Shown here piece after piece: positions 9,846 to 46,067 of a DNA stretch of 46,146 nt. The number at the start of each line of letters is the position of its first letter. Position 1 is the first letter of the stretch. The notes beneath the pieces were generated by a model. That model did no database searches and was not told where the DNA came from. It saw only the letters and a list, made by a program, of their open reading frames with translations. The position numbers and the translations under genes are program-made. This stretch comes from a virus, in IMG/VR virus record IMGVR_UViG_3300027816_000159, positions 1-46,146 of that record; one strand, 5' to 3'.

Positions 9846-10496
9846 TTATCGTCTTACTGATCTCATGAAGTCTGCAAAATTGATTCCTCCACCTACACCA
9901 CCGCCAGCAGCTGCTCCGGCTGCTCTGCCAGCACCACCAACAGCACCACTACTAAACATTGAGCTTGCCATGCCCATCAGCCCTTGACCAACACCCTGAG
10001 CAGCGGCTTGCTTCATCCCGGCAGCGCCAGTAATAATGTTAGCTCTAGCCTGAAGTCCGCCCATAATGTTCTCAAACAGATCCTGCTCCGCTTGCTGACC
10101 TCCAGCCAAAGAAGCATAGTACGCTTGACGTCTTGCTTCCTCAAGTCCTTGCCCTTCAATTAAACCTTTTGTCAAGGCATCCTGAGCCTGCTCACCAGCG
10201 CCAGCTACAAACTGTAGGTACTGGTCTGGACGGGCAGCCTGACGAGCTCTGAATAAAGTATTAGCCTGCTGAGTAGCGATCCCCCTTTGCATTGCTTGCA
10301 TTAGTGGGTTCTGCTGCATAGCTGATCTAGATTCAGCAATTCGCTGTTGGGCGAACTTAGACATTTCAGCCTTGGGTAATTCTTTCATTAACCCTGTGAT
10401 TTGTCTAGCAGCCTTAGCCTGCTCTCCGGCGCCAATCATGTTAGAGACGGCACCAAGCCCTCCCATCACAAGAGGTATAGCTAAAGGTATTGGCAT
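9846..10496 (-). CDS. Probable DNA-ejection protein, Gly/Ala-rich, gp14-like (216 aa)
   Basis: The protein opens with a hydrophobic glycine-rich stretch (PIPLAIPLVMGGLGAVSNMI, residues 2-21). A long helical Q/A/R-rich middle follows, and then a low-complexity segment (GGAGRAAGAAAGGGVGGG) near residues 184-203 before a basic tail. This composition is typical of small podovirus internal core or ejection proteins such as T7 gp14 and P22 gp7, which insert into host membranes during DNA entry. It is first of three co-directional genes that would form the ejectosome. Assignment rests on composition, size and gene order, not on a recognisable domain. Confidence 0.55.
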   Translation of the reverse strand: MPIPLAIPLVMGGLGAVSNMIGAGEQAKAARQITGLMKELPKAEMSKFAQQRIAESRSAMQQNPLMQAMQRGIATQQANTLFRARQAARPDQYLQFVAGAGEQAQDALTKGLIEGQGLEEARRQAYYASLAGGQQAEQDLFENIMGGLQARANIITGAAGMKQAAAQGVGQGLMGMASSMFSSGAVGGAGRAAGAAAGGGVGGGINFADFMRSVRR

Positions 10497-25400: not shown

Positions 25401-26388
25401 ATGTGTTAGAAATTAACGTAGCCGAGCCACTTGAACCCGTTGTGGTTAAAGTAATCGCATTCTGCTTGTTATTGAAGGTTGTCCAGTCTGTAGAACTCAA
25501 AGCACCCCTGTTAGTTGCAGAGGCTGTTGGTACGTTCAATGTAATTACAGGAGTTGTAGTACCGTTGGCTACACTAGAGCTAAGATCAGTACCAGTAGTG
25601 CCTAATGTTAAAGCCGCCACAGAAGTCACCGTTCCAACAGACCAAGTCCTATCTGCTGTAAGATCATAACTTACCCCATTGATAGTCAACACTCTAGCAG
25701 CATTTGCTGGGGTGTAACCTAATACAGTTGGTATAGATTTCTTCTCCCAAAGCTGTGTTGATGAGTTGTAGAAAATACCATCATTGTTAGTTGGGTTCAG
25801 GGCTGAAACATTATGAATCTCCTGAAGCTCAAAACCATTTTGAACCTTAACGAATATCTCTCCATTATTTTGCTGCACCCTTGTAACAATACCGATAAAA
25901 ACAAGGTGAGCTGGGGCATATGGCTTATTAACTAAACCAAAGATTAAATTACCATTTGTTCCAAGCCACACTGGATCTCCAGCCACAGCTGTTGACGTAT
26001 CAAGACCAGCTAGCAACCCCTCAGTAATAACGCTAACCTGAGCGTTTGTAACTCCGCCCGTCTCTATTAATCCAAGCGTTTTAGAAGATGTAGCCTCAGA
26101 TGTATTAGAAGCCTTAGACACGATCATGTTCGTACCATCGGCAGATGATACATAAACAGCCTGCCCCTTAGCTATATTTTCACCAAGCTTTACCTGATGC
26201 TTTAAAGTAGAAGTTGTAATAGGCCCAATATCAGACAACAACTGAGCCCCTGTTCTATACTTAACAACCCCGCCATCGCTAACTAAGAATCTATCAGTAT
26301 CAATTGTGGCATTGGCAATTGTATTTAATTGCGTAGTTCCATCAACAATAAGACCAGCCTTGGCTAAGATATTTGCTAAAAACTTCAT
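19468..26388 (-). CDS. Giant repeat-rich tail fibre protein (2306 aa)
   Basis: This protein is dominated by S, T, G, N and A residues with regular beta-strand spacing, as in trimeric phage fibres. Residues 1-240 are a distinct N-terminal part (MKFLANILAKAGLIVDGTTQ, KLGENIAKGQAVYVSS) likely to attach to the virion. The shaft carries many repeats. One recurring unit is 'GSRLQVNGNAAIGYSASTAA' followed by PTNGL.VAGN. Another has RGINATPTLTAAANNDFLVG / LDINPTFTNGAFTGV. Shorter GDVLLGTT, FRLDVNGTARVQ and AERMRI units also recur. The last ~90 residues (TLTSSDHTVIFNLNGNATAN, then WQILGD near the end) form a cap-like module. It would be the receptor-binding fibre. Its DNA is repeat-rich, which favours recombination. 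Function from composition and context; no enzyme motif seen. Confidence 0.8.
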   Translation of the reverse strand: MKFLANILAKAGLIVDGTTQLNTIANATIDTDRFLVSDGGVVKYRTGAQLLSDIGPITTSTLKHQVKLGENIAKGQAVYVSSADGTNMIVSKASNTSEATSSKTLGLIETGGVTNAQVSVITEGLLAGLDTSTAVAGDPVWLGTNGNLIFGLVNKPYAPAHLVFIGIVTRVQQNNGEIFVKVQNGFELQEIHNVSALNPTNNDGIFYNSSTQLWEKKSIPTVLGYTPANAARVLTINGVSYDLTADRTWSVGTVTSVAALTLGTTGTDLSSSVANGTTTPVITLNVPTASATNRGALSSTDWTTFNNKQNAITLTTTGSSGSATLISNTLNIPTYTLAGLGGISLTSLSAFVPLVYNNTTGQFSIIQSSGSNDGYLSATDWTTFNNKQNAITLTTTGTSGAATLVGSTLNIPQYQSVLTNPITGTGTTGQVSYFNGTNSITSSPTFAFTPTSQLLVNNSVTAASAIARGINATPTLTAAANNDFLVGLDINPTFTNGAFTGVNNVGLRVNFPNSGANNVATFRTGTNNNANLTSIQLVNSASGLSSIVNLVSGNVDNGNPYFAIQNRNNAGTVNENFRIFQSGNVVIQNGGTFTDAGFRLDIAGTARVQSFTTINAAPALNAEAALSVNATTNNSTGGQMYGIRSISTVATNTGNLTGIDATINNSTTATNMAGFNSAVNVSANTTAQVRGYSVGGAVTGSGVVSTYVGYDYVDVFKSGSGAVTRQNAIRIANLTAGSSANIGILFNNSAGTAVSGTWDIYSQSGNASYLAGNLLLGTTSDIGGRLQVAGTITATSAIARGINFTNTLVAAANNDVLVGLDINPTFTNGAFTGVTNNALRVTGISQLNGNVNTTGTINATATTDGFYSHTFTNSSTGTSAVVRFLLQGNDGGGAALAIERMGSNYVGTGARNAGRSVILAGSSGLALAASQSGGDIRFYTGDVTAASERMRLSVTNGNLLINTTTDAGFRLDVNGTARVQGNTTIVGDLSVPSGNYMSVNGTGSIFGMRIQSSLLNITAGNTNLAAFDQSLGSGALSLRGVANNNVSGNFIQLQVGSTTTAALTSNAGTANYTAVNITAGYNITGGTHNIIGIYYDPTLTSMTGVTHRAIQTVTGDVLLGTTSGNVMIGTTTAGGRFTIQPTNNQVGMAISGSSLTGSNAQSLVSLSQTWNTTGNPTAFLLNITNTASGATADLMDLQVGGASRFEITAAGRARLGAYGSGTITGTATYNLAVDSSGNVIEVTGGGGGGIGGSGTTNYLPKFTASTTLGNSQIFDDGTNVGVGTATAGSKLQINGNAAIGYSASTAAPTNGLAVAGNVGIGIAAPATNLHVYRTTAGLSGMQISNLTHGSTVTDGMFVGVDDTQGYIYMYENLPIQLSTNSTVRLFINNDGTVFVGGTNAPASPTTGILSGSGATGTNVAGAELRIRGGASTGSGAGGPITFYTSAAGSSGTGVNAATERMRIYSDGMVRTFMSTTNTTQYFASARITIQQTSATNNNFANLSFLGANSDDAAAIYSQISAHTAGATSGNLVFATSNAASASTARMTITSTGLVGINTQTIGSQLQVNGGAAIGYSASTAAPTNGLMVAGNVGVNVTPSAWASGFRAIQIGARSAVYNSDINFTGLGNNIFYDGSFYRYITTAAISTIELGAGVITFGNAPSGTAGAIVSGTERMRIAADGNVGIGATSPSRYNHGGTNRFLEIYNTATTADAQAHVILTTGAAANTGSIGSITYAIPNTAGAEKRGAIIQGLIDANSATSVNARLEFLTASAGTLDTRMIIAPAGNVGINTSTIGSRLQVNGNAAIGYSASTAAPTNGLIVAGSITGASNSNTFGTSSASGYPVIINTGSGSNSLKINGRNNAPGDESGIEFFRFDGVTRVAFIQASTNFFAFATSSEAMRINSSNFLGIGTTTIGSRLQVNGGAAIGYSASTAAPTNGLAVAGNIALNSTLSGWISPFNVIEGNTYAGYVGFQTNAADMKVGINNFYDGTGTSGYKYKTTNGAVQLGLSAANGFQVNVVTSGTANTNFVWTQAMLINLSGEVKLTPAANTSVLSTTGAYSLTGSNAQSLIDLAGTWNTTGNPTAIKLNITNTASGANSLLMDLQVGGTPEFRVTRTGNVVVNGSTSTYQMHVVGTGSLLALGEESFTTGRQMLFGIDGSGNGEIQSVQQGTSYRNLSINPLGGNVGIATSSPTSTLHANGSVAKAITTKTATYTLTSSDHTVIFNLNGNATANLPDATTCTGRIYMIKINRTNTTDTLTIDPNGTQTIDGFTTYALQCQYAVIIQSDGSNWQILGDFANGTNCL
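20552..22556 (-). repeat. Four dispersed ~115-bp repeats inside the tail-fibre gene
   Basis: Copies lie at about 20552-20664, 20916-21032, 21621-21735 and 22438-22556. Each encodes the same fibre unit (G..LQVNG.AAIGYSASTAA, then PTNGL.VAG). They differ at synonymous and a few non-synonymous sites but keep long identical blocks, and copies two and three share the block encoding the AIGYSASTAA core almost exactly. Copies are separated by unlike sequence of about 250-700 bp. They are natural sites for unequal recombination. Confidence 0.75.
23870..25011 (-). repeat. Second pair of ~140-bp repeats in the tail-fibre gene
   Basis: The segments at about 23870-24018 and 24872-25011 encode nearly the same peptide (ALRV, then VGLDINPTFTNGAFTGV on the coding strand). 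They share most bases, including the tract coding for the NNDVLVG / NNDFLVG core. A third, shorter pair at about 25190-25262 and 25420-25495 encodes the STDWTTFNNKQNAITLTTTG unit. These make the fibre shaft modular. Confidence 0.65.
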
Positions 26389-42468: not shown

Positions 42469-42540
42469 CTAATCTCTTTAGCAATTTGGCTTCATAGACG
42501 ATCGACTAAATTCTTTAGCATCGCTTGCTAACTGGTTTAG
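42469..42540. promoter_or_regulatory. Three tandem CTAA-N5-TTAG dyads (candidate operators)
   Basis: Thirteen-base palindromic sites CTAATCTCTTTAG (42469-42481), CTAAATTCTTTAG (42506-42518) and CTAACTGGTTTAG (42528-42540) share outer arms CTAA/TTAG, and the base before the right arm is T in all. Spacing from start to start is 37 and 22 bp. They lie directly downstream of the winged-helix gene and upstream of the structured RNA and early genes. Each could also form a small hairpin in RNA. After them comes a C-rich then A/T-rich stretch, with nested inverted repeats CTTCCAA/TTGGAAG (42610/42667) and CAACTT/AAGTTG (42619/42652). Confidence 0.6.
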
Positions 42541-42675
42541 TAGCCGAGCCCCCTTTTTACCCTCCCAGTCCCATCCTTCCCAAAATTATTTTTTTGCTTA
42601 ACTGGTTGACTTCCAATCCAACTTCTAAGTAAGTATACGTATTTTTAAAAAAAGTTGTAAAAAAATTTGGAAGTA

Positions 42676-43138
42676 GTTACCCTGCCGATGTATGTTTGCC
42701 TCGGATTCAACGATGAGTCCGCAGTTCTTTCAAATGTTCGCTACAACGTGTTAGGGCAACGCACCTCCCACCCATCCACCCGACTAGGTGAGTACGATGG
42801 ACGGACGGACACCAAACCACGATTAATGCATAGCGATGGTCTCGATATGAGCCTTCCGTCGTAAGACGTTGTGGCCACCACGAAGAGTGGGATGAGACTC
42901 GAGGATGCCTTCCTCGGCACATAAACATCAGGCACACTGGCGGTATCGTACCTGCTCCCAGTGTTCTCGCAAGGTCGCGCCAAACCTCGGTAGTTCCGAG
43001 TCAGGGTGTTGGAGTCAGCAAACCGAAAGGACTGACTTGCATGGGCAGATGTTAAGGGTCGATTTATCACCCCCGACTACCCGATAAGTAAATGGGTCTA
43101 GTGCTAATATTCGCACTACTGACGATGGGGGCAGTAAC
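42676..43138 (+). ncRNA. Large structured RNA candidate, ~463 nt, at head of early operon
   Basis: No credible reading frame exists here, yet the sequence folds locally almost throughout. A terminal stem closes it: GTTA-(CC)-CTGCC at 42676-42686 pairs with GGCAG-TAAC at 43130-43138. Inside are a hairpin of 8 bp with ACGA loop (42702-42721), CCATC-CACC/GGTG-GATGG (42772-42800), a branch closed by GTCTC/GAGAC (42839/42898) that holds CGTC-GTAA-GACG and CCAC/GTGG, CGAGGA/TCCTCG (42900-42916), CACTGG-GGTA/TACC-CCAGTG (42935-42963), CTCGG/CCGAG (42986-43000), GTCAG with a CC-GAAA-GG tip (43014-43036) and TAGTGC/GCACTA (43099-43118). It ends 18 nt before a start codon. It lacks the conserved boxes I know for RNase P RNA, tmRNA or self-splicing introns. 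Large phage RNAs such as GOLLD or ROOL are possible relatives. Confidence 0.65.
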
Positions 43139-43156
43139 CTCCGAAACCCAAACACC

Positions 43157-43282
43157 ATGATAAACGTAAACCTCCTCACCCTAAAGGGTCAGCAGATTGC
43201 CGCTGACCTCCTATCCATGGGATGGGAAATCGTGACATTTGACACCCTTTCTATCACCCTTCAAAATCCTTCTTATGCGTAA
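43157..43282 (+). CDS. Small hypothetical protein (41 aa)
   Basis: The ATG at 43157 follows the structured RNA by 18 nt, with the same AAACCC-type leader used by the later early genes. The product begins MINVNLLTLKGQQIAADLLS, continues MGWEIVTFDTLSIT and ends LQNPSYA. It overlaps the next start by 8 nt (ATGCGTAA), which suggests translational coupling. A short amphipathic helix is likely. No family is recognised. The leader match is the main reason to call it. Confidence 0.5.
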   Translation: MINVNLLTLKGQQIAADLLSMGWEIVTFDTLSITLQNPSYA

Positions 43283-43549: not shown

Positions 43550-43557
43550 TTTCCCCC

Positions 43558-43600
43558 GAACTGGGCCGCTTTAGGCAAGTCATCGAATGACACCCAGTTC
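43558..43600 (+). ncRNA. Intergenic tRNA-like element A
   Basis: The outer stem GAACTGGG/CCCAGTTC (8 bp) encloses a small CC-GCTTTA-GG hairpin and a second hairpin GTCAT-CGA-ATGAC, also readable as a 3-bp stem with a 7-nt ATCGAAT loop. It starts 8 nt after the previous stop, is preceded by CCCCC, and ends 20 nt before the PP-loop gene's ATG. The three-way-junction plan matches the other five elements while the paired bases differ. Confidence 0.7.
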
Positions 43601-43620
43601 CTCATCCAAACCCCAATACC

Positions 43621-44382
43621 ATGATTCAGCAACTAATCGACAGAGGCGCAATCTTTTTTATCAACGACTCAGGTGGAAAGGATAGCCAAGCCATGAAGAT
43701 ATTCCTCAGCAAAGTAGTACCCCACGACCAACTGGTCATCGTCCATGCAGACCTCCCCGAAGTTGACTGGGAGGGATGTTGGGAGCACGTACAAGAGAAT
43801 TCACTGGGCATAGAGGCGCACCTCGTTCGTGCGGGCAAGACCTTCTTCGAGATGGTGGAGCACCGCGGCATGTTCCCCTCCCCCAGTTACCGCCAGTGCA
43901 CCAGTGACCTCAAGCGCCAACCGATTGAGAAGTTTATCCGCAACTGGTGCAAGGAGAGAGGCAAGACCCTCATCGTGAACTGCATGGGTATCCGCTCCGA
44001 AGAGTCATCCGCTCGCGCCAAGCAAATCCCCTTCCGCATCAACGAGCGCAATAGCAAGGCGGGTCGGGAGTGGTACGACTGGCTACCCATCTTCGACTGG
44101 AGTGTAAAGGAGGTGTGGGCTGAGATTGAGTCAGTAGGTCAGAAGAGGCACTATGCCTACGACCTCGGCATGAGCCGCCTCTCTTGCGTGTTCTGCATCA
44201 TGAGCAATAAGAGCGATATCAAGGTGGCCGCAAAGCACAACCCCCAGTTGTACAAGCGGTACGTAGAAACTGAGGAGCGGCTTGGGTTTACCCTCCTCAT
44301 GAGTGGCAAGGAGAAGAACTGGCTGAAGGATATCGTTGAGGGTGATGCCAAGTTCTCAGTCGCAGAGTTCGTCTGCGGATAA
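43621..44382 (+). CDS. PP-loop ATPase, PAPS reductase-like family (253 aa)
   Basis: The ATP-pyrophosphatase loop is clear as FINDSGGKDSQAMKIFL, with SGGKDS at residues 17-22. The next strand LVIVHADLPEVDWEGCWEHV and a later CMGIRSEESSARAKQIPF (~120-137) are typical of the PAPS reductase/DndC-like branch. A late SRLSCVFCIMSNKSDI carries a CxxC that could hold zinc or a cluster. The family activates substrates by adenylation in sulfur assimilation, tRNA or DNA thiolation. Phage copies are common but their substrate is rarely known. It is flanked by intergenic elements A and B, and its own stop codon lies in the stem of B. Confidence 0.8.
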   Translation: MIQQLIDRGAIFFINDSGGKDSQAMKIFLSKVVPHDQLVIVHADLPEVDWEGCWEHVQENSLGIEAHLVRAGKTFFEMVEHRGMFPSPSYRQCTSDLKRQPIEKFIRNWCKERGKTLIVNCMGIRSEESSARAKQIPFRINERNSKAGREWYDWLPIFDWSVKEVWAEIESVGQKRHYAYDLGMSRLSCVFCIMSNKSDIKVAAKHNPQLYKRYVETEERLGFTLLMSGKEKNWLKDIVEGDAKFSVAEFVCG

Positions 44383-44422
44383 CTGGATGGTCTCAGGAGG
44401 GGTTCGACTCCCCTCCCAGTTA
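44380..44422 (+). ncRNA. Intergenic tRNA-like element B (contains the upstream stop codon)
   Basis: TAACTGG pairs with CCAGTTA over 7 bp. Directly against the 3' strand stands a T-arm: a 6-bp stem GAGGGG/CCCCTC and a 7-nt loop TTCGACT, a canonical tRNA T-loop. The outer stem and T-stem would stack as 13 bp. The 5' side of the interior (ATGGTCTCA) is unpaired. The first three bases are the stop codon of the PP-loop gene. It ends 19 nt before the next ATG. The CCCCCG lead found at the others is absent. Confidence 0.75.
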
Positions 44423-44441
44423 CGAATCAAACCCCTATACC

Positions 44442-44933
44442 ATGAGACAAACTAGAAGACTCGAAGGTAGCTTCACCAACTACCTTATGGGCAACAATTC
44501 GTCTACCCCAGAGGTAGGCAAAGGTGCTACTCTCCTATCGTATTCAGACCGCCACCCTGCTGAGGTGTTGGAGGTATCCGCCGATGGTAAGCAGTGTGTT
44601 ATTCGTGAGATGAACCACAAGGCCAAGCCCAATGCAGAAGGTATGGGCCACCAAGACTGGGAACTGACTCCGAATCCCGATGGATACAAGCGCACTCTCC
44701 TATACCGCAACGGCGCATGGAGAGAGGTGATTGAGGACATCGTGTTTGAGCCCGAATTCTCGAATCAGTTCAAGCATATGACCGACCTATGGATTCGTTG
44801 TAGTGAACTGGGACTCTACGATGACAATAACGACCTCAGATTCGTTAAAGGATTCACCAAGGTGAAAAGGAGATACCCGAAGGTGAATATCCTCTTTGGT
44901 AGAGCAGAGTATCACTATGACTGGGAATTCTAG
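44442..44933 (+). CDS. Hypothetical protein (163 aa)
   Basis: It begins MRQTRRLEGSFTNYLMGNNS, has a beta-type core (GATLLSYSDRHPAEVLEVSA, then QCVIREMNHKAKPNAEG) and an aromatic, charged second half (FEPEFSNQFKHMTDLWIRCS) ending in W-E-F. The 'A.V..V..DGK...V......K' portion resembles small barrel domains found in other phage hypotheticals. No catalytic motif is seen. It ends in TAG and is bounded by elements B and C. Confidence 0.6.
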   Translation: MRQTRRLEGSFTNYLMGNNSSTPEVGKGATLLSYSDRHPAEVLEVSADGKQCVIREMNHKAKPNAEGMGHQDWELTPNPDGYKRTLLYRNGAWREVIEDIVFEPEFSNQFKHMTDLWIRCSELGLYDDNNDLRFVKGFTKVKRRYPKVNILFGRAEYHYDWEF

Positions 44934-44939
44934 TCCCCC

Positions 44940-44985
44940 GAACTGCGAGGTAAGACCTAAGTCGGAGCGAAACCGACCGCAGTTC
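44940..44985 (+). ncRNA. Intergenic tRNA-like element C
   Basis: GAACTGCG pairs with CGCAGTTC (8 bp). Inside are AGG-TAAGA-CCT (3 bp, 5-nt loop) and, directly against the 3' strand, GTCGG-AGCGAAA-CCGAC (5 bp, 7-nt loop), positioned and sized like a T-arm. It starts 6 nt after the TAG stop, after CCCCC, and ends 20 nt before the next ATG. Confidence 0.75.
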
Positions 44986-45005
44986 CTTACAAAACCCCTA
45001 CAACT

Positions 45006-45251
45006 ATGCAAGAAAATCAAATCTATGCCCGCCAATGCGATGCTACTGGCGAAGGAATGAACGAAGGCTACTGCTTCGGAGATGGATGCTACTATGCCAA
45101 GTACGAGGCCGATGCGCTCAAATATGCTCAGCAGTTAGGATACGATACCCTTGAGGAAGCATACGAGGATGAGGCCTACTACTGGACGGAGTGGGAGGAT
45201 GCGGATGACTTTCAGTATATCGTGAAGGGTGGAGAACTGGTCGAAATCTGA
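45006..45251 (+). CDS. Acidic hypothetical protein (81 aa)
   Basis: The product MQENQIYARQCDATGEGMNE is followed by GYCFGDGCYYAKYEADALKY and a very acidic, aromatic end (AYEDEAYYWTEWEDADDFQY). Three cysteines (11, 23, 28) might bind metal. The strong negative charge suggests a DNA-mimic or protein-binding role, but that is conjecture. It lies between elements C and D and starts with an ATG 20 nt after C. Confidence 0.6.
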   Translation: MQENQIYARQCDATGEGMNEGYCFGDGCYYAKYEADALKYAQQLGYDTLEEAYEDEAYYWTEWEDADDFQYIVKGGELVEI

Positions 45252-45258
45252 CACCCCC

Positions 45259-45306
45259 GAACTGCCACCATCCCGATGGCGATGGGTTCGCGACCCAAGG
45301 CAGTTC
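45259..45306 (+). ncRNA. Intergenic tRNA-like element D
   Basis: GAACTGCC pairs with GGCAGTTC (8 bp). Inside are CCAT-CCCG-ATGG and TGGG-TTCGCGA-CCCA, the latter with a 7-nt TTCG-starting loop like a T-arm, one unpaired A from the closing strand. It starts 7 nt after the TGA stop, after CCCCC, and ends 21 nt before the next ATG. Confidence 0.75.
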
Positions 45307-45327
45307 CTCATCAAAACCCCAAACACT

Positions 45328-45495
45328 ATGGTTAAGGTCTATTTCGAGACGGAAAATTCAAAGTACGCAGAATTGGTAGCAAAATTCGATAGTGAAGAAA
45401 CCTACTATGCATGTTCTGAGGCACTGGAATCTTTAGCCAAGAAGAACGGATTTGATTTCGTTACCGAAAGTTTACAAGAAGAAGAGGATTTATAA
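45328..45495 (+). CDS. Small hypothetical protein (55 aa)
   Basis: The ATG at 45328 follows the D leader (AAAACCCC then ACT). A longer in-frame start at 45229 would run through element D and is rejected. The product MVKVYFETENSKYAELVAKF is followed by an acidic helical half (EALESLAKKNGFDFVTESLQ). It looks like a compact beta-alpha protein. No family is recognised. Confidence 0.55.
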   Translation: MVKVYFETENSKYAELVAKFDSEETYYACSEALESLAKKNGFDFVTESLQEEEDL

Positions 45496-45502
45496 TCCAC
45501 CC

Positions 45503-45545
45503 GAACTGCATCGGTTCAGCCGTGGTCTTCGATGACGTGCAGTTC
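45503..45545 (+). ncRNA. Intergenic tRNA-like element E
   Basis: GAACTGCA pairs with TGCAGTTC (8 bp). Inside are CGG-TTCAG-CCG (3 bp, 5-nt loop) and GTC-TTCGAT-GAC (3 bp, 6-nt loop). The plan equals element C with shorter arms. It starts 7 nt after the TAA stop and ends 16 nt before the peptidase ATG, the shortest leader of the set. Confidence 0.7.
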
Positions 45546-45561
45546 CCTAAATCCAAACCCC

Positions 45562-46017
45562 ATGAACCTAAATGAAGCAAGAGTATTAGCCACTGCGCTA
45601 ATCGAAAAGCACGGACTTACTGACTGGCAGTTCAAATTTGACACCGCCCTTAGTAGGTTCGGATGTTGTAAGTTTCGATCGAAAACAATAACCCTATCCG
45701 CCAAACTAACCGAATTAAACGGCGAGGCTAAGGTAACAGATACGATACTGCACGAGATAGCACACGCCCTTGTTGGAGTGGGACACGGACACGATTCGGT
45801 GTGGAAAAGGAAGGCTTTAGAGATTGGATGCAACGGAGAACGATGCTATAACCCACAAGAAGTAAGCACACCCGATGGGAAGTATTCGGCAGTATGCCCG
45901 AAGTGTAAGCACGTACACAAAAAGTTTCGTAAAAAGACAAGACGTTCCTCGTGTGGGTTTTGCTCGGGAGGAAGGTTCAATCCCGAATACGAACTCAAGT
46001 ATACCATGAACTACTGA
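45562..46017 (+). CDS. SprT-like zinc metallopeptidase (151 aa)
   Basis: The ATG at 45562 (MNLNEARVLATALIEKHGLT) fits the leader rule; an upstream in-frame start lies inside element E. The active site is TILHEIAHALVGVGHGHDSV, with His64, Glu65, His68 and a third ligand near His75-His77. A zinc ribbon follows with CPKC (112-115) and CGFC (131-134). This is the SprT/Spartan-like core, known in cells for cleaving DNA-crosslinked proteins; phage versions are of unknown target. The W-K-R-K and R-K-K-T-R-R stretches would favour DNA binding. Confidence 0.85.
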   Translation: MNLNEARVLATALIEKHGLTDWQFKFDTALSRFGCCKFRSKTITLSAKLTELNGEAKVTDTILHEIAHALVGVGHGHDSVWKRKALEIGCNGERCYNPQEVSTPDGKYSAVCPKCKHVHKKFRKKTRRSSCGFCSGGRFNPEYELKYTMNY

Positions 46018-46024
46018 CACCCCC

Positions 46025-46067
46025 GAACTGCGATGGTCTTACGGAGGTTCGATTCCTCCGGCAGTTC
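46025..46067 (+). ncRNA. Intergenic tRNA-like element F
   Basis: GAACTGC pairs with GCAGTTC (7 bp). Directly abutting the 3' strand is a T-arm of 6 bp, CGGAGG/CCTCCG, with a canonical 7-nt loop TTCGATT. As in element B the 5' interior is unpaired and contains ATGGTCTTA, nearly the same as in B. It starts 7 nt after the TGA stop, after CCCC, and ends 20 nt before the last ATG. Confidence 0.75.

Follow-up and report, generated by a model that had tools for sequence, protein, structure and literature searches.

The early genes at the end of a 46,146-nucleotide stretch of viral DNA (IMG/VR record IMGVR_UViG_3300027816_000159, positions 1 to 46,146; the whole stretch is called the window below) are separated by six compact elements, each of which is a sense-orientation structured RNA built like a tRNA minus its anticodon arm, with counterparts of the acceptor stem, of the D arm (a short hairpin) and of the T arm. 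We put at about one half the probability that these elements are tRNA-like punctuation of the polycistronic early transcript, setting the ends of its messages via tRNA-processing enzymes of the host. A tentative extension, a little short of even odds, is that they belong to a family of tRNA mimics lacking an anticodon, hitherto undescribed and widespread, which punctuates polycistronic messages in unrelated dsDNA phages, where host tRNA-processing enzymes would set the ends boundary by boundary and the elements would serve as standard joints for cassette swapping. If this were true, a new small structured RNA family would exist in phages of several host phyla, and phages would organise polycistronic messages by tRNA mimicry, a strategy familiar from mitochondria. 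Many unannotated intergenic gaps would then become annotated parts, some gene-module boundaries would be explained, and synthetic operons would gain a compact natural part for gene separation.

Six elements between early genes

A preliminary description had placed six elements of 43-48 nt on the + strand, and all of them were found. Element A (43558..43600, +) combines the acceptor stem GAACTGGG/CCCAGTTC with a D-like hairpin around CCGCTTTAGGC and the T-like arm GTC-ATCGAAT-GAC; the TAA of a 27-codon ORF lies 8 nt upstream and the ATG at 43621 lies 20 nt downstream. Directly 5' of its acceptor stem is a CCCCC run (43553..43557, +). Of the other five elements only B lacks it; C, D, E and F have the run, identical or nearly so, and most relatives do as well. 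Between element A and the ATG stretches the leader (C)CTCATCMAAACC (43601..43620, +), kept in the other gaps and in relatives (repeats D1/D2). A phosphoadenosine phosphosulfate reductase-like gene of 253 aa (43621..44382, +; phrog_424, 1.5e-38) separates A from element B (44380..44422, +), whose acceptor is TAACTG/CAGTTA, its D hairpin GA-TGG-TC and its T-arm loop TTCGACT. The first three bases of this stem are the TAA stop of the preceding gene, and three relatives (G003, G004, G008) also have an element at this position.

The next gene (44442..44933, +; 163 aa, without a function call) is 100% identical in G008, where a different element follows it. In the window it is followed by element C (44940..44985, +), in which an 8-bp acceptor, GAACTGCG/CGCAGTTC, and the T arm GTCGG-AGCGAAA-CCGAC make a stack of 8+5 = 13 bp, with the D hairpin AGGT-AAG-ACCT. 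Element D (45259..45306, +) consists of the acceptor GAACTGCC/GGCAGTTC, the D hairpin CCAT-CCCG-ATGG and the T arm TGGG-TTCGCGA-CCCA, and element E (45503..45545, +) of GAACTGCA/TGCAGTTC, CGG-TTCAG-CCG and GTC-TTCGAT-GAC, respectively. Beyond E lies a gene of 151 aa (45562..46017, +) of phrog_1006, a family without annotated function; by eye it looks zinc-metalloprotease-like, and a search for relatives with the SprT-like protein as bait found none. Element F (46025..46067, +; E 3.6e-14) is the plainest tRNA mimic of the six, with a 7-bp acceptor (GAACTGC/GCAGTTC), the D hairpin GA-TGG-TC and the 6-bp T arm CGGAGG-TTCGATT-CCTCCG.

All elements but B, which has TAACTG/CAGTTA, are closed by the stem GAACTG/CAGTTC. 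As had been described, the inner pairs are GG/CC, CG/CG, CC/GG and CA/TG, the preceding stop is 6-8 nt away (except in B) and the following ATG lies 16-21 nt downstream. An extra hairpin is present in A, C, D and E; B and F have instead a hairpin of 2 bp around a UGG loop, which that description lacked. Folding z-scores range from -0.7 (B) to -4.2 (C). A large structured RNA considered at 42.68-43.16 kb was rejected, its folding z being only -1.1.

The claim that every early gene boundary carries an element holds from 43.55 kb onwards, up to the point where the record is truncated. It fails at the two junctions before that, the earliest ones (ATG 43275 and ATG 43466), where the genes overlap and there is no element; the first early gene (43157) has none in front of it either. 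In longer relatives, furthermore, the rightward gene block carries elements over its first 2-5 kb only.

A tRNA-like fold

About 75 distinct copies were collected from related phage contigs. In 62 distinct aligned copies from relatives, pairing occurs in 95% of cells, and both sides change, in a compensatory manner, at 15/15 modelled pairs; covariation in these 62 copies, the alignment of which was fitted to the model, is 0.46; shuffling lowers it to 0.09, and sliding the partners to 0.08 or less. Cells with a double change number 191 in relatives, as opposed to 52 in shuffles, and, for the 140 distinct hits that make up a wider set, 531 against 134. Chance is excluded because both pairing and covariation are seen in the relatives' copies. 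This very strong covariation, together with the fact that the elements always lie in the same orientation as the genes, supports the earlier proposal that the conserved feature is an RNA structure and not an invariant DNA operator. That description overlooked the tRNA-mimic shape, the tie to the upstream stop and the spread beyond one phage.

Acceptor and T stem total 12-13 bp, near the 12 bp of tRNA, even as the split between them shifts (6+7, 7+6 or 8+5), and the 3' strand measures 12-13 nt in all 75 clade copies and in 61 of the 70 wider ones. In the simplest class (class I, to which B, F and most wider copies belong) the acceptor is stacked on a T arm with a TTCRANY loop, the T-like loop reading TTCGAYT in most copies; class II has the variant NNCGNNN. 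Position 3 of the T loop is C in 75/75 copies and position 4 is G in 74/75, the single exception being an A, which the R57 rule of tRNA permits. The D-like loop contains a G in 72/75 copies, and the pair closing the D-like hairpin around UGG may be G-C, A-U, U-A or C-G. The sequence after the stem is usually N-C-not-C (N75 is C in 9/86); therefore no CCA is encoded, which is compatible with an RNase Z substrate. G-U pairs make up about 0.5% of T-stem cells and are thus roughly tenfold rarer than in real phage tRNAs (5% in the T stem, 7.7% in the acceptor). Their near-absence is one point against a pure RNA logic, and a DNA-level structure predicts the same.

The elements have no match in Rfam 15, at the gathering threshold or at E ≤ 1, and the same is true of 16 further loci. 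ARAGORN does not score them as tRNA, giving one partial call, anticodon unresolved, in locus L362. No description of such elements was found in a literature search whose scope left out preprints and most subscription journals, so that a published account may be missed; with neither an Rfam family nor a paper in hand, the earlier impression of an undescribed family stands. In bacterial genomes, matches to the acceptor pattern are scattered over unrelated taxa and the strict finder confirms no element among them; model R1 found nothing at E ≤ 0.01 in 12 bacterial genomes, which shows little alone. A general link with GOLLD RNA was rejected, as some 30 loci with a GOLLD-like pattern gave the strict finder only L502, besides L354 already in the set.

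Distribution and placement

The core pattern retrieves 70 further distinct copies in unrelated viral contigs, among them annotated Gordonia, Streptomyces and Mycobacterium phages. Just as at A-F in the window, a tRNA-like unit occupies most boundaries of a co-oriented gene block in Gordonia phage VanLee, where 8/8 consecutive long gene gaps examined contain one, and in Endor1, where, of the gaps measuring 50 nt or more, 8/10 do. The elements sit at gene boundaries, usually 4-10 nt after the preceding stop codon: a close upstream stop is found in sense for 38 of the 70 unrelated copies, when 2.9 would be expected at random, and in antisense for 4. The distance to the next ATG varies, from 16-21 nt in the window to 36 nt in G015 and about 45-60 nt in VanLee. 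In B and several other copies (G013, G009) the stop codon lies within the acceptor stem. Homology between relatives breaks inside elements at 42/63 ends (11% expected), and an identical gene may be followed at its boundary by different subtypes in different phages, as in the window and G008.

Proposed punctuation and its rivals

If the elements punctuate the early transcript, RNase P on the 5' side and/or RNase Z on the 3' side, possibly also the CCA-adding enzyme, all of which recognise the top half of tRNA and its elbow, would bind them. The bound enzyme would then cut there, or else the element would stay in place and cap the upstream message stably at its 3' end. Neighbouring genes would thereby be separated, and the next gene would gain a short, clean leader. 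Because such an element would work by its shape, any version could replace another and gene-plus-element cassettes could be exchanged between phages. Covariation, the T-loop rule, the D-loop G, the 12-13 nt 3' strand, stop-codon proximity, non-constant ATG spacing, the filling of gaps in VanLee and Endor1, the absence of an encoded CCA and the subtype swaps all count for this punctuation. Against it stand the C at N73 of the clade, a rare discriminator in tRNA, the scarcity of G-U pairs, which tRNA mimicry does not predict, and the many class II loops (AGCGATA and similar) that are non-canonical T-loops. Where the stop lies inside the stem, as in B, G013 and G009, a 5' cut before translation would yield non-stop messages, and such copies are more compatible with cutting on the 3' side or with a cap that stays uncut.

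An uncut 3' stabiliser or insulator involving no tRNA enzyme, the fold of which would block 3' exonucleases and keep upstream RNA off the next start region, has a modest chance of being the correct explanation. Spacing that is tight to the stop and free to the start, interchangeable subtypes, non-canonical T loops included, almost perfectly Watson-Crick stems and the tolerance of stop codons within them would all suit it; yet a plain hairpin would suffice, and the conserved T-loop, the D-loop G and the 12-13 bp stack, kept across very different base compositions, are left unaccounted for. We consider it unlikely that the fold recruits or holds ribosomes for initiation or re-initiation of the next gene. 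The near-constant 16-21 nt to the ATG and the conserved leader of the window would agree with such a role, as would the enrichment of starts at most 60 nt downstream in unrelated phages (26 vs 7.9). The position, however, is fixed to the stop codon and not to the start, the ATG distance differs between clades, an extra hairpin may intervene (G015, G007), and in actinophages a Shine-Dalgarno-like AGGAG comes after the element. Stop-codon readthrough was rejected as a general role, since the upstream frames of A and C reach, by eye, another stop inside the element.

The scarcity of G-U pairs, expected under selection for DNA-level pairing, and the homology breakpoints within elements might suggest that an extruded hairpin serves as a site of recombination or, in the manner of N4, as a virion RNA polymerase promoter, RNA folding being incidental. 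This is quite unlikely: breakpoints at gene boundaries are expected regardless, the loop sequence is tRNA-specific, orientation tracks the stop codon (38 sense, 4 antisense), and the elements are present in Gordonia, Streptomyces and Mycobacterium phages, for which no virion RNA polymerase is known. Many tRNA enzymes bind the top half of tRNA alone, so that the multiple copies in early genes might be decoys titrating or inhibiting a host tRNA-binding enzyme or a defence nuclease, or sites for a phage regulator. We rate this as very unlikely, given that a decoy would have no need to hug each stop codon, and that subtype diversity in one phage speaks against a single sequence-specific protein. 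Placement right behind stop codons would also be appropriate for intrinsic terminators without a U tract, and there is a precedent in the early genes of actinophage phiC31 (Ingham et al., 1995, as cited in PMC8355165). This explanation is highly improbable, as no T tract follows the stem (over the following 10 nt the fraction of T averages 0.22) and stopping in every gap would silence the operon. Identity with the phiC31 terminators was rejected, the intergenic hairpins there not being tRNA-like and model R1 finding no match among them.

Comparison with known systems

With canonical tRNA (Rfam RF00005) the elements share the acceptor stem, the D-like hairpin with its loop G, the TTCRANY T loop of class I and a top-half stack of about 12 bp; unlike it, they have no anticodon arm, no encoded CCA, a length of 39-48 nt, two hairpins only and a D stem down to 2 bp. 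As regards function, a parallel would be mitochondrial tRNA punctuation, where tRNA-shaped units also lie between the genes of a polycistronic transcript, but those are real tRNAs excised by RNase P and RNase Z, whereas the phage units are mimics for which cutting is putative. Mimicry of tRNA by a viral or bacterial RNA is also seen in the 3' tRNA-like structures of plant viruses and in tmRNA, whose tRNA-like domain has no D stem and the same stack of acceptor and T arm as the elements; these occur as one copy per RNA, at the ends, while the phage elements are many and lie inside dsDNA phage operons. Between the early genes of T7, RNase III sites are structured processing marks made of long double-stranded stems. 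A T7-type site needs some 20 bp or more of double strand; the elements, with only 12-13 bp, T arm included, and a tRNA-like form, are therefore not of that type. The PeSL cassettes of T4-type phages reportedly are likewise structured, recur between genes and coincide with the exchange of modules, but they combine an early promoter with a plain stem-loop, in place of which the elements have a tRNA fold. N4-type hairpin promoters, which belong to phages with a virion RNA polymerase and precede the first early gene, differ in that the elements do not lie before that gene (43157) and are found in actinophages too. The phiC31 early terminators are structures that likewise follow stop codons in the early genes of an actinophage; they are plain long hairpins, in contrast to the tRNA-like elements of the window.

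The early region elements

The large terminase (TerL) encoded on this 46-kb virus fragment has distant relatives, at 22-32% identity, in gut crAss-like phages, Flavobacterium elemo phages and Cellulophaga phages (phi38:1, for example). A preliminary description had placed six elements of 43-48 nt in intergenic gaps (A to F, starting at 43558, 44380, 44940, 45259, 45503 and 46025). All are present, on the + strand, with the stem pairings described, 6-8 nt from the preceding stop codon in all but B, and 16-21 nt from the following ATG. The closing stem is GAACTG/CAGTTC in five; B has TAACTG/CAGTTA, where TAA also serves as the upstream gene's stop codon. The presence of an element at 'every early gene boundary' is true of the gaps A-F; the junctions at 43275 and 43466, the earliest two, are start/stop overlaps and hold no element. 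A run of about five Cs lies immediately 5' of the element at 43553, 44935, 45254 and 46020 and in relatives, a feature of this clade only. A C directly 3' of the element is invariant in this clade only, and a C run usually precedes the element. Before the first early gene, a non-coding stretch of about 500 nt (42500-43160) is conserved with three related contigs (100% with G008, 82% with G003 and 87% with G004); no Rfam family matches it, and its stability as RNA is unremarkable (z -1.1). It is probably an early control region.

A tRNA-like fold under selection

The distal hairpin of F, GGAGG-TTCGATT-CCTCC, is a tRNA T-arm sequence, and the short hairpin beside it has a G-G loop; both B and F have GATGGTC between acceptor stem and T arm. 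Seventy-five distinct copies gathered from related contigs fall into two classes. In class I (B and F), the D-like hairpin has 2 bp and a UGG loop, its closing pair being G-C, A-U, U-A or C-G and its second pair A-U or U-A. In class II (A, C, D, E), the hairpin at the D position is longer, with a loop containing or ending in G, and the T-like loop reads NNCGNNN. The T-like loop has C at position 3 in 75/75 copies and G at position 4 in 74 of them, the remaining copy having A; a G is present in the D-like loop of 72. These positions correspond to those of the tRNA elbow pairing, G19-C56 and R57. Counted together on the 3' strand, T stem and acceptor come to 12 or 13 nt in every one of the 75, split as 7+6, 8+5 or 6+7; the corresponding sum in tRNA is 12. 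There is no space for an anticodon arm. The element is a tRNA-like structure.

Covariation had earlier been read as a sign of RNA structure, and this reading is upheld. Both alignments used here were fitted to a model, which biases them toward structure, and the margins are large nonetheless: in relatives (62 distinct aligned matches), 95% of cells are paired and double changes occur at all 15 pairs, with a covariation score of 0.46 vs 0.09 in shuffles and at most 0.08 with slid partners; in other phages (140 distinct matches), 94.7% are paired, with 531 double-change cells vs 134 in shuffles and a score of 0.55 vs 0.11. The structure is under selection. G-U pairs form about 0.5% of T-stem cells (1/375 in the clade, 3/420 in wider copies), and 5% (7/140) in real phage tRNAs; over all element sets, they are about tenfold rarer in stems than in those tRNAs, and the clade alignment has none in its acceptor helix. 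This scarcity reflects either a premium on stability in so small a fold or pairing that also matters in DNA.

Distribution among viruses

In relatives, two models of the element (R1 and R2) match only the early gene block, on the coding strand, with the exception of a few matches that are weak and isolated. They find nothing in G016, G019 and G020 (47-52% TerL identity), and one weak match in G018. Further afield, the class I core, with no acceptor required, matched at least 155 viral stretches (at least 120 plus 35); of the 147 matches examined, those left after deduplication include 86 in which the core is enclosed by a perfectly paired acceptor stem of 5 bp or more, and these stems differ considerably in sequence. 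A strict finder gave 224 matches in retrieved loci totalling 5.4 Mb, many of them chosen by the core pattern and some overlapping, and none in a first-order random control or in 119 bacterial loci. R1 is silent in T5 (23 tRNAs) and in phiC31, and is thus not detecting tRNAs.

Within the examined region of Gordonia phage VanLee (NC_073474), there are eight successive gaps with a length of about 100 nt or more, each with one element. Nine elements occur in Streptomyces phage Endor1 and eight in Joe, also a Streptomyces phage; of the 10 gaps in Endor1 that span 50 nt or more, 8 hold an element, and no short junction does. MakoManhole, Trine, HINdeR and Dagobah carry one or a few copies each. In the annotations of these phages nothing is marked in the gaps, Trine excepted. 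There an ORF is called across them, and three tandem elements lie at the start of annotated gene 40 (L477 2102-2380), whose ORF start may be mis-annotated.

Some loci hold other structured RNAs. A GOLLD RNA (L354 110-569, - strand; E 1.1e-83) is directly followed by an element, and a viral contig with a type I hammerhead ribozyme (L393 4403-4452, - strand) also carries one. In phiC31 (NC_001978), the gap between genes 13 and 14 (L516 14410-14552) holds a full-length tRNA-like sequence that is not annotated; its T arm is complete and the two sides of its acceptor stem match.

Placement and exchange

Unrelated phages have a stop codon in sense orientation at -8 to 12 nt from the element in 38 of 70 cases; random positions give 2.9 (at most 8 in 200 trials), and the antisense orientation gives 4. 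The modal distance, 6-9 nt, would probably place the element about where it just escapes unfolding by a terminating ribosome. The distance to the next start differs among clades. By its placement, the element thus goes with the end of the preceding gene. Between some elements and the next ATG there is a second small hairpin (TGCAATAATGCA and ATACCGATGTTGGTAT, for example; G015 near 10017, 10511 and 10950, G007 at 25675, and L197 and L206), which varies in sequence with pairing kept.

When the early block of the window is compared with G001-G021, the related contigs, 42 of 63 homologous block ends fall inside or adjoining an element, where a length share of 11% predicts about 7. Identity with G008 is 98.8% up to element C, and the two differ from there on; the gene preceding C is 100% identical and the element subtype differs. 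With G005, the window has one gene-plus-element cassette in common (96% identity). Together, these observations make the elements interchangeable modules. They may cause exchange or simply survive it, gene boundaries being favoured breakpoints anyway.

Possible role and relation to known RNAs

Three features are common across phages: a position behind a stop codon, independence from subtype, and the shape by which RNase P, RNase Z and the CCA enzyme recognise their substrates. Such tRNA enzymes would punctuate or cap the message at the element. This is the simplest common reading, to which we give about an even chance. In B and others, stop codons lie within the stem, which argues against a cut that must fall on the 5' side; what remains is cutting on the 3' side, or a cap left uncut. 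Most copies continue after the stem as N-C-not-C; they avoid the C that would come second in a CCA end (9/86). A fold that stabilises or insulates the message with no cutting at all comes second, and seems rather unlikely. As to precedent, the preliminary description knew of no such phage family, and Rfam, existing annotations and the literature searched, preprints and subscription journals lying outside the search, hold no description of the element. As a repeated gene-boundary element in dsDNA phages, this tRNA-like structure appears to be new.
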